From Lutibacter sp. A64 (GTDB lineage: Bacteria; Bacteroidota; Bacteroidia; Flavobacteriales; Flavobacteriaceae): DNA of 64,000 nt. The position numbers and the translations under genes were made by a program. The notes below the pieces were generated by a model. It was not told where the DNA came from. It saw only the letters and a program-made list of their open reading frames with translations, and did no database searches. Every line of letters starts with the position of its first letter. Within the stretch, counting starts at the first letter, position 1. Shown one piece after another: positions 52,427 to 56,529 of this stretch. The stretch spans positions 3,552,001-3,616,000 of the forward strand of contig NZ_CP092487.1 in assembly GCF_022429565.1 (NCBI RefSeq). Reading direction: 5' to 3'.

Positions 52427-52434
52427 TAGCTTTG
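52427..52434 (+). promoter_or_regulatory. promoter -7 box of the aromatic amino acid operon
   Basis: TAGCTTTG matches TAnnTTTG exactly. Transcription would begin near 52441, about 12 nt before the leader ATG, so the leader peptide is near the 5' end as required for attenuation. Confidence 0.6.
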
Positions 52435-52452
52435 TCGAGTATAAGAACAATT

Positions 52453-52515
52453 ATGATAACAAATAACACATTTAACAGCTTCTATTTTTACTTTTATTTT
52501 AACAATAAAGGGTGA
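52453..52515 (+). CDS. Phe/Tyr leader peptide of the pheA operon attenuator
   Basis: A 20-codon frame from ATG 52453 to TGA 52513-52515. Residues 7-16 read FNSFYFYFYF, so five Phe and three Tyr codons lie in ten positions, including the unbroken run FYFYFYF at 52480-52500. The downstream operon makes precisely Phe and Tyr. A ribosome stalled on this run for lack of charged tRNA would leave the antiterminator arm (from 52513) free; one that reaches the stop codon would cover it. This is the classical attenuation design. The peptide itself needs no further function. Confidence 0.88.
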   Translation: MITNNTFNSFYFYFYFNNKG

Positions 52516-52560
52516 GGCTTTGTATGTGTTGATTAACAAAATATAAATTATAGAGTCTCG
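52513..52560 (+). promoter_or_regulatory. antiterminator hairpin of the Phe/Tyr attenuator
   Basis: Bases 52513-52524 (TGAGGCTTTGTA) pair with 52549-52560 (TTATAGAGTCTCG region) over 12 consecutive positions, four of them G-U. The 5' arm starts at the leader stop codon. The 3' arm takes up the first five bases of the terminator stem, so the two hairpins exclude each other. Confidence 0.75.
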
Positions 52561-52583
52561 AAATTATTTCGGGATTTTTTTTT
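52556..52583 (+). terminator. attenuator terminator upstream of pheA
   Basis: The stem TCTCGAAA (52556-52563) / TTTCGGGA (52567-52574), 8 bp with one G-U, has the loop TTA and is followed by nine T residues. It ends 17 nt before the pheA start codon and follows the leader peptide, which fits premature termination when Phe and Tyr are plentiful. Confidence 0.9.
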
Positions 52584-52599
52584 GAATAAAAATTAAAAA

Positions 52600-53418
52600 A
52601 TGAAAGTAGCAATTCAAGGTATAAAAGGGTCTTTTCACCACATTGTGGCACAACAATATTTTGGAGAAAACATAGATTTATTAGAGTGTTTATCTTTTTC
52701 TGAGATGCCAAACCTTTTATTAGATAAAAAGGCAGATGTCTTAATTATGGCAATCGAGAATTCTATAGCTGGGGCAATATTGCCTAATTACGCTTTAATT
52801 GATGATTTTCAATTAAATATTTGTGGTGAGTTTCATTTACCAATTAATCATAATTTAATGGGATTGAAAGATCAAAATATTGAAGATATTAAAGAAGTAT
52901 ATTCACATCCTATGGCACTATTACAGTGTCATAATTTTTTTAAAGACTACCCGCATATAAAACTTATAGAAGATAAGGATACGGCTTCGGTAGCTAAAAG
53001 AATTGCAGAAAATAACTTAAAAGGAGTTGGAGCCATTGCAAGTACACTAGCTGCAGAAATATATAATTTAGATATTATTGCTGAAAACATTCAAACCATT
53101 AAAGAAAATGCTACACGTTTTTTTATTTTAAATAATAATAAAGATAAAAGCAGTGTTTCAGCAAACAAAGCTTCAATAAAATTTATAACAAGTAATGATA
53201 CTGGTAGTTTGGCAGAAGTGCTTTCTATTTTAGCAAAACACAATTTAAATATGTCTAAAATACAATCTATGCCAGTTATAAACACCCCTTGGAAATATGC
53301 TTTTTTCGCTGATTTTATTTTTAAAAGTTATGCCGATTATTTTGATGCAATAGATGAAATTAAAGAAAAAGTAGAAATAGTAAAAATTTTAGGAGAATAC
53401 ACAAAAGGTAAAAGATAA
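52600..53418 (+). CDS. pheA: prephenate dehydratase
   Basis: Converts prephenate to phenylpyruvate, the committed step to phenylalanine. The 272 residues hold the catalytic dehydratase domain (about 1-180: VAIQGIKGSFHHIVAQQYF, ADVLIMAIENSIAG, and the TRF motif NATRFFIL with Thr172) and a C-terminal ACT domain (IKFITSNDTGSLAEVLSILAKHNLNMSKIQSMPV) for allosteric control, where the Phe-binding ESRP of other enzymes reads QSMP. There is no fused chorismate mutase; that activity is on the fourth gene. The stop overlaps the next start as TAATG. Confidence 0.96.
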   Translation: MKVAIQGIKGSFHHIVAQQYFGENIDLLECLSFSEMPNLLLDKKADVLIMAIENSIAGAILPNYALIDDFQLNICGEFHLPINHNLMGLKDQNIEDIKEVYSHPMALLQCHNFFKDYPHIKLIEDKDTASVAKRIAENNLKGVGAIASTLAAEIYNLDIIAENIQTIKENATRFFILNNNKDKSSVSANKASIKFITSNDTGSLAEVLSILAKHNLNMSKIQSMPVINTPWKYAFFADFIFKSYADYFDAIDEIKEKVEIVKILGEYTKGKR

Positions 53419-54575
53419 TGATACAAAAAGCTGATAGATTAAACGATGTAAAAGAATACTACTTCTCAAAAAAATTGAGAGAGGTAGCGGCTTTAAGAAA
53501 TGAGGGGAAACCAATAATAAATATAGCAATTGGAAGCCCAGATTTAGCGCCGTCAAATAGTGTAATAGCAGCAATTCAAAACGCTGTAACGTTACCAAAT
53601 GCACATCAATATCAAAGTTATCAAGGAATTCCAGAATTAAGAAGTGGAATTGCCGATTTTTATAAAGAAAACTACAATGTTACCTTAAATTCAGCTACAG
53701 AAATTCTTCCTTTAATGGGGTCAAAAGAAGGAATTATGCATATTTCTATGGCTTTTTTAAATAAAGGAGATAAGGTGTTGATACCAAACCCTGGTTATCC
53801 AACCTATGCTTCAGTTACAAATTTGGTTGAAGCTGAGCCAATTTTATACAAATTAAATGAAGCTACTAATTGGTTGCCTAATTTTAAAGAATTAGAACAA
53901 CAAGATTTATCAAATGTTAAAATTATGTGGATTAATTATCCGCATATGCCAACAGGTGCTGTTGCTTCAAAAGAAGATTTTAAAGAATTGATAGCTTTTG
54001 CTAAAAAGCATCAAATTTTAATAGTAAACGATAATCCGTATAGCTTTATTTTAAATGAAAATCCGCTTAGTATTTTAGAAATAGAAGGAGCTAAAGAAGT
54101 TGCAATTGAGTTAAATTCTTTAAGTAAAACCTTTAATATGGCAGGTTGGAGAGTAGGTATGGTTGTAGGAGATGCCGAAATTATTAAAACAATATTACAA
54201 GTAAAAAGTAATATGGATTCTGGAATGTTTTTTGGAATTCAAAAAGGAGCTGTAGAAGCATTTAAATTGTCTTCAGATTGGTTTAAAGCCCAAAACGAAA
54301 TTTATAAAAGAAGAAGAGCTATTGTTTGGCAAATTTTTGATGCGCTTAATTGTACTTATAATAAAAATATTGGAGGTTTGTTTGTATGGGCAAAATTACC
54401 AGAAGGTATAAAATCTGAAGATGTTACAGATGATTTACTGTATAATAAAAATGTATTTATAACCCCTGGAACTGTTTTTGGTTCTAATGGAGCTGGTTAT
54501 TTAAGAGCATCATTATGTGTTTCAGAAGAGGTGCTTGAAGAAGTGTTAGATAGAATAATTACTGTAAATGTGTAA
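53418..54575 (+). CDS. class I/II aminotransferase, aromatic amino acid type
   Basis: A 385-residue PLP aminotransferase of fold type I. It has NIAIGSPDLAPS near the N-terminus, NPGYPTYASV, the PLP-binding NDNPYSFI and the Schiff-base Lys in SLSKTFNMAGWRVGM. The position between pheA and tyrA indicates that it transaminates phenylpyruvate and 4-hydroxyphenylpyruvate, or prephenate, in the final steps. The start codon overlaps the pheA stop by one base, and tyrA starts 2 nt after its stop, so translation is coupled. Confidence 0.92.
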   Translation: MIQKADRLNDVKEYYFSKKLREVAALRNEGKPIINIAIGSPDLAPSNSVIAAIQNAVTLPNAHQYQSYQGIPELRSGIADFYKENYNVTLNSATEILPLMGSKEGIMHISMAFLNKGDKVLIPNPGYPTYASVTNLVEAEPILYKLNEATNWLPNFKELEQQDLSNVKIMWINYPHMPTGAVASKEDFKELIAFAKKHQILIVNDNPYSFILNENPLSILEIEGAKEVAIELNSLSKTFNMAGWRVGMVVGDAEIIKTILQVKSNMDSGMFFGIQKGAVEAFKLSSDWFKAQNEIYKRRRAIVWQIFDALNCTYNKNIGGLFVWAKLPEGIKSEDVTDDLLYNKNVFITPGTVFGSNGAGYLRASLCVSEEVLEEVLDRIITVNV

Positions 54576-54576
54576 C

Positions 54577-55434
54577 ATGGAAAAATTAGTAGTTATTGGT
54601 TTAGGTTTAATAGGTGGTTCCTTAGCATTAGATTTAAAAAAGAGAGGAAATTATAAAGTCTATGGAGTTGATCAAAACCCAGAGCACATAAAAAAAGCAC
54701 TAGAACTAGGTATAATTGATGAAGAAATTAGTCTTTCTGAAGTTGCAGATGCAGCTGTAGTAATTATATCAGTACCAGTTAATATTATAGCAAATATTAC
54801 AAAACAAGTATTGGATATTGTATCTGATAAAACCTTGGTTTTTGATGTTGGTTCGGTAAAAAATAATATTTGTAAGGCGGTAGAAAACCATAAAAACCGT
54901 AAAAACTTTGTAGCAGCGCATCCGCTTGCAGGTACAGAATTTTCGGGGCCACAAGCAGCAATTTTAAATCTATTCGATCATAAAGTAAATATTATTTGTG
55001 AAGCTGATAAAACAGATTGGAAAATTTTAGACAAAGCAATAAGCTTATTTAAACTGTTAGATATGCGTATTAAAATGATGCAGCCAGTAGAACACGATAG
55101 GCATATTGCGTATGTTTCTCACTTGTCTCATATCAGTTCTTTTATGTTAGGGAAAACAGTATTGCAAATTGAAAAAAATGAACAGGCAATTTTTGATATG
55201 GCAAGTACAGGTTTTGCATCTACAGTGCGTTTAGCAAAAAGTAATGCTGATACTTGGGCTCCAATTTTTTTAGAAAATAAAGAAAATGTTATAAGATCTC
55301 TTGATGAGTATATTAAAAATTTGAGTGAATTTAAAACTCTAATTGAAAATGCAGATGATAATGGTTTAAGAGTAATTATGAAAGACACAAATTATATAAA
55401 ATCAATTTTAAACGGAATTAAAGAAAACGACTAA
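54577..55434 (+). CDS. tyrA: prephenate dehydrogenase
   Basis: Oxidatively decarboxylates prephenate to 4-hydroxyphenylpyruvate for tyrosine. The 285 residues comprise an N-terminal Rossmann domain (VVIGLGLIGGSLALDLKKRG), DVGSVKNNICKAVE, the active-site HPLAGTEFSGP and a helical dimerisation domain (HDRHIAYVSHLSHISSFML). The chosen ATG 54577 begins right after the aminotransferase stop. An ATG at 54568 would add three residues (MCN) and overlap that stop, so it is less likely but possible. Confidence 0.95.
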   Translation: MEKLVVIGLGLIGGSLALDLKKRGNYKVYGVDQNPEHIKKALELGIIDEEISLSEVADAAVVIISVPVNIIANITKQVLDIVSDKTLVFDVGSVKNNICKAVENHKNRKNFVAAHPLAGTEFSGPQAAILNLFDHKVNIICEADKTDWKILDKAISLFKLLDMRIKMMQPVEHDRHIAYVSHLSHISSFMLGKTVLQIEKNEQAIFDMASTGFASTVRLAKSNADTWAPIFLENKENVIRSLDEYIKNLSEFKTLIENADDNGLRVIMKDTNYIKSILNGIKEND

Positions 55435-55452: not shown

Positions 55453-56529
55453 ATGGAAATTACAAAAGAAAACAGAAAGTGGTTAGATAGCATGGGCTTA
55501 GATCATCCAATTGTTATTGCAGGACCTTGTAGTGCTGAAACTGAAGAACAAGTTTTAAAAACTGCTCATTTATTAAAAGATACAGATACAAACGTGTTTA
55601 GAGCTGGTATTTGGAAACCAAGAACAAGACCAGGTGGTTTTGAAGGTGTAGGAGGAATAGGTTTGCCATGGTTACAACGCGTTCGTGAAGAAACAGGAAT
55701 GAAAATTACTACTGAAGTTGGTAATGCAAATCACGTAGAATTAGCTTTAAAAGCTGATGTGGATATTTTGTGGATTGGAGCTAGAACTACTGTAAATCCT
55801 TTTGCTGTTCAAGAAATTGCAGATGCTTTAAAAGGTGTAGATAAGCCAGTTTTAGTTAAAAACCCGGTAAATCCAGATTTAGCATTATGGTTAGGTGGTG
55901 TAGAACGTTTTCAAGCAAATGGAATTTCACAATTAGGTGTAATTCACCGTGGGTTCTCGGCATACAATACTGGTCATTACAGAAATAAACCAAAATGGCA
56001 TATTGCAATTGAATTGAAAAAAGAATTCCCAGATTTACCTTTAATTTTAGATCCATCTCATATTTGTGGACGTAGAGATACTATTTTAGATGTTTCTCAA
56101 ACAGCTTTAGATTTAAATTTTGATGGTTTAATGGTTGAAACACATATTGATCCAGATAATGCTTGGAGTGATGCTGCACAACAAATTACACCAGCAAGAT
56201 TGGATGAAATTACTAAAGAATTAAAAATTCGTCAAAAAAGTAGTTCTAAAGAAAGTTTCCAAAGCAAATTAAATTTATACCGTAAAGAGTTAGATTTAAT
56301 AGATGGTAATATTATTGATATTTTAAGTGATAGAATGGCAGTTGCTGGAGAAATTGGAAAATTAAAGCATAAAGAAAATGTAGCAATTTTACAAAGTGGA
56401 AGATGGTCAGATATTTTATCAGCTATGATAGAAACTGGAAAAAGTAAAGGTTTAAGTACAGAATTTGTAGAAGAAGTATTTAAAGCAATACATGTTGAGT
56501 CAATAAATATTCAACGTAACATAAAATAA
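55453..56529 (+). CDS. aroG: bifunctional DAHP synthase / chorismate mutase
   Basis: Catalyses the entry step of the shikimate pathway and the conversion of chorismate to prephenate. The N-terminal KDO8P/DAHP synthase-like domain (about 1-265) has VIAGPCSAET, FRAGIWKPRTRPGGFEG, VLVKNPVNPD and LDPSHICGRRD. The C-terminal AroQ-type chorismate mutase (about 275-358) has LNLYRKELDLIDGNIIDILSDRMAVAGEIGKLKHKENVAI. The fusion is common in Bacteroidota. As the last gene of the operon it places both branch-point activities under the Phe/Tyr attenuator. The symbol follows common use for this fusion. Confidence 0.94.
   Translation: MEITKENRKWLDSMGLDHPIVIAGPCSAETEEQVLKTAHLLKDTDTNVFRAGIWKPRTRPGGFEGVGGIGLPWLQRVREETGMKITTEVGNANHVELALKADVDILWIGARTTVNPFAVQEIADALKGVDKPVLVKNPVNPDLALWLGGVERFQANGISQLGVIHRGFSAYNTGHYRNKPKWHIAIELKKEFPDLPLILDPSHICGRRDTILDVSQTALDLNFDGLMVETHIDPDNAWSDAAQQITPARLDEITKELKIRQKSSSKESFQSKLNLYRKELDLIDGNIIDILSDRMAVAGEIGKLKHKENVAILQSGRWSDILSAMIETGKSKGLSTEFVEEVFKAIHVESINIQRNIK

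Follow-up and report, generated by a model that had tools for sequence, protein, structure and literature searches.

Organization of the pheA locus

The window analysed here, a 64,000-nt stretch (3,552,001-3,616,000) of the one-contig Lutibacter sp. A64 genome, carries an operon of four genes, pheA, an aminotransferase gene, tyrA and a gene for a DAHP synthase–chorismate mutase fusion (Table 1). This assignment, proposed in an earlier note made from the sequence alone, is upheld by profile matches. Because of its four gene products the operon makes both Phe and Tyr, and seven consecutive codons for these two amino acids precede it. They lie in a 20-codon frame, MITNNTFNSFYFYFYFNNKG, for which a base-by-base check of the sequence placed the ATG at 52453 and the TGA stop at 52513-52515. 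The nucleotides at 52480-52500, with either TTC or TTT as the first codon, were found upstream of pheA across nearly all Lutibacter and occur about once per genome. Two Lutibacter genomes also hold a second exact match to the Phe/Tyr run away from pheA (G016:C8:38300-38320 and G029:C22:23861-23881), which may be a further leader or a coincidence.

Table 1. Features of the pheA locus in the window, and sister leaders elsewhere in the Lutibacter sp. A64 genome
Feature	Position	Strand	Support or remark
−7 promoter element TAGCTTTG (TAnnTTTG)	52427..52434	+	direct sequence; motif recurs in relatives
Leader peptide ORF MITNNTFNSFYFYFYFNNKG*	52453..52515	+	homologues at all Lutibacter loci examined and 129/136 further loci
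Protector arm 1 (52464-52471 and 52477-52482)	52464..52482	+	partners 52514-52519 and 52524-52531
Regulatory codons FYFYFYF (TTC TAT TTT TAC TTT TAT TTT)	52480..52500	+	conserved in genus
Hairpin in aromatic run, candidate pause hairpin (52491-52498 / 52504-52511)	52491..52511	+	35-leader alignment
Arm 2, antiterminator 5′ arm, opening with leader stop codon	52513..52524	+	pairing and swap test
Arm 3, antiterminator 3′ arm, overlapping terminator	52549..52560	+	pairing and swap test
Intrinsic terminator (stem 52552-52563 / 52567-52578, T run 52575-52583)	52552..52583	+	35-leader alignment
pheA, prephenate dehydratase with ACT-like domain	52600..53418	+	PF00800 E=9.5e-57; ACT match just under cut-off
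Class I/II aminotransferase	53418..54575	+	PF00155 E=1e-60
tyrA, prephenate dehydrogenase	54568..55434	+	NF006307 354 bits (cut-off 295); PF02153, PF20463
DAHP synthase–chorismate mutase fusion	55453..56529	+	PF00793, PF01817
Trp leader MKQNTLNNNWWWNSLSN	upstream of trpE (L247)		strong terminator follows
His leader MTTTQFHHHHLHTCNQAS	upstream of hisG (L249)	−	strong terminator follows
Ile/Val-rich leader MANININIISIIVSVIIHK	upstream of ilvD (L252)		strong 11-bp terminator ~270 nt before ilvD

The putative promoter element TAGCTTTG matches the Bacteroidota −7 consensus and is separated from the leader ATG by 18 nt. Upstream of the leader ATG, the motif TAnnTTT[AG] was present in 88 of 175 leaders, compared with 11–17 of 175 in control windows, and its distance from the ATG peaks at 17–18 nt in relatives. 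This spacing predicts a 5′ UTR of ~11–14 nt, shorter than the mean of 33 nt in F. johnsoniae (PMC6847099), and ribosomes would have to load rapidly from so short a 5′ end. The −33 element is weak in Lutibacter sp. A64, where the −33 position at the usual spacing reads ATG, not TTG. A generic sigma-70 scan was uninformative, as shuffles gave more sites than the real sequence.

Almost all of the anatomy proposed in the earlier note stood up to this inspection: an exact −7 box, a 20-codon Phe/Tyr frame, a stop codon that opens the 5′ arm of an antiterminator, and an overlapping, mutually exclusive terminator with nine T residues, all within 175 nt of pheA. No part of the attenuator lies more than 173 nt from the pheA ATG at 52600, and the terminator stem can be lengthened to 52552-52578 with 12 pairs and a 3-nt loop. 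The proposed 12-bp antiterminator hairpin (52513-52524 / 52549-52560) is likewise present, but four of its 12 pairs are G-U and only the inner 8–9 are constant in relatives. Two further structures can be added to this anatomy, a protector pairing between 52464-52482 and 52514-52531 and a hairpin within the aromatic run, both of them conserved in the genus.

Conservation of the leader and its pairings

When the window's pheA upstream region was dinucleotide-shuffled 3000 times, 5 of the shuffles contained an ORF with at least seven F/Y residues in eight codons, and the leader RNA folds with a z of −3.4 relative to shuffles. Far stronger evidence comes from conservation. A leader lies upstream of pheA at all Lutibacter loci examined, with FYFYFYF in nearly all, and an aromatic leader was found at 129 of 136 further loci (a few of which are one place counted twice) from Flavobacteriaceae and other Bacteroidia families, including Sphingobacteriaceae. 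For Flavobacteriaceae beyond Lutibacter it was absent from only 3 of 114 further loci (L158, L176 and L195); among the 136, the four loci L225-L228, which belong to one other family, also lacked it. The Lunatimonas, Cyclobacterium and Capnocytophaga loci had no aromatic leader. At a threshold of at least six aromatic residues in eight, the leader ORF was detected in 181 of 195 distinct upstream regions, compared with none of the 195 on the reverse strand and 1–3 in shuffles. Because of this conservation, we consider it very unlikely that an aromatic leader stands before pheA by chance.

The peptide itself is well conserved in Lutibacter, as would be expected if the ORF encoded a small peptide with a function of its own and the terminator were a constitutive brake, with translation and termination uncoupled. 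Outside the genus, however, the peptide varies in all but its aromatic content, and arm sequences persist where the peptide tail changes: in L010, L014 and L021 an indel shifts the tail frame and alters the end of the peptide, while the arm GAGGCTT is retained. Three mutually exclusive pairings are moreover conserved or co-varying. Together these observations make a free-standing small peptide highly improbable, and argue instead for a leader coupled to termination.

Support for the individual pairings came from an alignment of 35 Lutibacter leaders (alignment A1). For the terminator, 99% of cells are paired and three pairs have both partners altered. The corresponding figures for the protector are 89.7% and four pairs (for example AACAC:GUGUU to AAUAC:GUAUU), and its covariation score was reached by none of 500 shuffles. 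The hairpin in the aromatic run is paired in 280 of 280 cells, five of its eight pairs being invariant, and is a candidate for a role in pausing. The antiterminator helix showed no double changes within the genus in this alignment, so the case for its co-variation rests on comparison between genera. When arm 3 was exchanged among 162 leaders, the arm 2–arm 3 stem scored 18.7 with its own arm and 14.9 with swapped arms (sd 0.2, maximum 15.7); the swap was made between genera, across the arm classes TCTCG, TCCCG and TCCTG, and is uncorrected for relatedness. Arms 2 and 3 thus change together across genera. The earlier note had suggested aligning related flavobacteria for conserved leader codons and compensatory changes in the hairpins; the codons and both hairpins are conserved, the terminator and protector carry compensatory changes, and the antiterminator arms co-vary between genera.

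Two variants of the arrangement were seen among the relatives. A Flavobacterium-like group (e.g. L203-L206 and L209-L223) has NRFYFSN-FYFFF leaders with the arms AGGATTG / CAATCCT replacing GAGACTT / AAGTCTC. Some Lutibacter relatives (L012, L015-L018, L024 and L030) have an insert-like stretch of ~45–90 nt between the terminator and pheA, with a core 'GAAATGCGTATAACTAT...AAATGCGCATTCCTGAGGAC'; L016 and L018 apparently have two related copies of the stretch. These inserts after the attenuator resemble a small mobile element or repeat.

Codon usage in the run bears on the same pairings. All 35 leaders spell the Tyr at the base of the inner hairpin as TAC, a codon that accounts for only 24% of Tyr codons in pheA and is not fixed at any conserved Tyr column there. 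For the Phe that begins the run, 26 of the 35 leaders use TTC, compared with 13% in pheA. The C bases of this TAC and TTC both pair with G in the proposed helices. These counts, which are uncorrected for shared ancestry, fit a regulatory codon choice constrained by RNA pairing.

A proposed ribosome-mediated switch

Taken together, these features suggest that a real, textbook-style attenuation switch lies upstream of pheA in marine Lutibacter, combining a leader of Phe/Tyr codons with two competing RNA hairpins. From sequence comparison and modelling, we judge it very probable that the element is a classical ribosome-mediated transcription attenuator of the pheA-aminotransferase-tyrA-DAHP synthase/chorismate mutase operon. 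Transcription would begin ~4–7 nt past the −7 box, and the short AT-rich 5′ end would recruit a ribosome with no Shine-Dalgarno sequence involved. Were charged tRNA-Phe or tRNA-Tyr scarce, the ribosome would stall in FYFYFYF and cover arm 1, leaving arm 2 to pair with arm 3 and polymerase to continue into pheA. Without translation, arm 1 would pair with arm 2, tending toward termination in Lutibacter sp. A64. Shortage of either Phe or Tyr would then be expected to open the operon. The parts themselves, their conservation and co-variation and their agreement with folding thermodynamics are what the analysis shows; from this arrangement we infer where transcription begins in the cell, that the leader is translated with ribosomes stalling in it, that transcripts terminate there, and how each amino acid acts.

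Masked folding of the nascent RNA up to the completed arm 3, with a ribosome footprint, switched structures as this mechanism predicts; both the footprint and equilibrium folding are modelling choices. For the window RNA, the antiterminator had a probability of 0.35 when no ribosome was present; a stall at any aromatic codon raised this to 1.00, and a ribosome on the stop codon lowered it to 0.01. In silico, the switch went in the expected direction in 78 of 78 leaders. When more leaders were folded and the antiterminator was defined more loosely, 155 of 185 switched as expected, the 30 failures being mostly Mucilaginibacter and distant leaders; this version is less specific, since A-U pairs formed with the aromatic run also count as antiterminator. 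Lutibacter leaders were mixed in their antiterminator probability without a ribosome (mean 0.51), whereas other leaders default to antitermination (mean 0.95), which suggests that the outcome for an untranslated leader may differ between groups. The classical Phe/Tyr attenuation that the earlier note proposed therefore finds support in the conserved codons, hairpins and promoter position, in the co-varying pairings, and in a structure that flips under masked folding.

In other transcription attenuators, of T-box and TRAP type, sensors of another sort choose the structure, and a trans-acting RNA-binding protein or a small molecule could in principle pick the hairpin here, the ORF being secondary. 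No result of the analysis suggests such a sensor, and the window contains no Rfam riboswitch or T-box match, a tRNA being its sole Rfam match at the gathering threshold. What is most constant across families is a stretch of aromatic codons with arm 2 directly behind it in the sequence order, not a sensor fold. We accordingly give this explanation very little credence and favour the translating ribosome as the sensor.

A subtler question is which amino acids the attenuator would sense. It may work as proposed and yet respond to all three aromatic amino acids, that is, to general supply via DAHP synthase, with Phe and Tyr merely making up the bulk of the codons. A Trp codon is present in 100 of 185 distinct leaders; at the Lutibacter position in NTWNSFYF, Trp occurs in 28 of 35 leaders and Phe or Tyr in six more; and 63 of the 68 loci of sufficient length have a DAHP synthase gene farther downstream. 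The Lutibacter sp. A64 pheA leader, however, has no Trp codon and carries Phe at that position, a separate Trp leader precedes trpE in the same genome, and a single Trp codon among at least seven Phe/Tyr codons may matter little. We regard sensing of all three as possible but rather unlikely, and retain Phe and Tyr as the probable signals.

Sister leaders, known systems and significance

Targeted family searches of the Lutibacter sp. A64 genome recovered leaders upstream of trpE, hisG and ilvD (Table 1). Each matches the gene it precedes, and the pheA leader is therefore one of a set. The trpE leader is followed by a terminator of the form GGACTTATC-TCGC-GATAAGTCC-T6, and, as just 8 nt lie between the leader's −7-like box and the ATG, this transcript may be nearly leaderless. 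The end of the hisG leader repeats the right arm of its terminator (TCAAGCGAG / TCAAGCGGG), an arm copy of the kind also present at pheA.

The E. coli pheA attenuator has a Phe-rich leader peptide and a competing antiterminator and terminator. Its enterobacterial family in Rfam, Phe_leader (RF01859), resembles the Lutibacter element in the gene controlled, the Phe-rich leader and the competing hairpins, but in Lutibacter Phe and Tyr codons alternate, there is no Shine-Dalgarno sequence, the stop codon opens arm 2, and the operon additionally contains tyrA and DAHP synthase. RF01859 gave no match at the window's pheA locus up to E=5, and its best score among the homologues was 25.5 bits (E=2.6) in Mucilaginibacter, against a gathering threshold of 55. 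A comparative study by Vitreschak et al. in 2004 reportedly already predicted some attenuators in Bacteroidetes/Chlorobi. Bacteroid-trp (RF01692), a Trp peptide leader of Bacteroidota (Weinberg 2010, PMC2864571), likewise attenuates an aromatic pathway of this phylum by means of a leader peptide but concerns another amino acid and operon; it scored 41.3 bits at the Lutibacter sp. A64 trpE leader, just short of the cut-off of 49, and had no match at the pheA leader of the window.

Another precedent is a 2021 transcriptome of F. psychrophilum, whose main text describes a structured pheA 5′ element that is conserved in Flavobacteriaceae and lacks an Rfam match, along with structured 5′ regions of amino-acid operons bearing strong clues for leader-peptide attenuation (PMC9723704). 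That element, found by transcriptomics, precedes the same gene in the same family and, judging from the main text, is likely the same as the Lutibacter leader; for pheA, that text does not set out a peptide, codons, pairing arms or a mechanism. The main text of Naville and Gautheret 2010 makes no mention of Bacteroidota or pheA. The earlier note's view that such attenuators are little described in Bacteroidota accordingly holds for the details at pheA, within the parts of this literature covered, but not for the class, since RF01692 and PMC9723704 precede. As far as that literature shows, the attenuator class is classical and a Bacteroidota pheA element had earlier been noted, its details not being described.

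A broader reading is that the pheA leaders form a phylum-wide, Shine-Dalgarno-independent family in Bacteroidota, acting as an OR gate for Phe and Tyr (and Trp in about half of relatives), in which codons are fixed by pairing and one segment serves both as sensor codon and as protector or pause hairpin; we put the chances of this as even. Textbook attenuation needs ribosome loading fast enough to match RNA polymerase, and the conservation described here indicates that Bacteroidota, which start translation without Shine-Dalgarno sequences, use it routinely. The leader alignment could seed a new Rfam family, and the pheA locus and its three sister leaders offer defined, conserved sites at which transcription-translation coupling may be measured in Bacteroidota.
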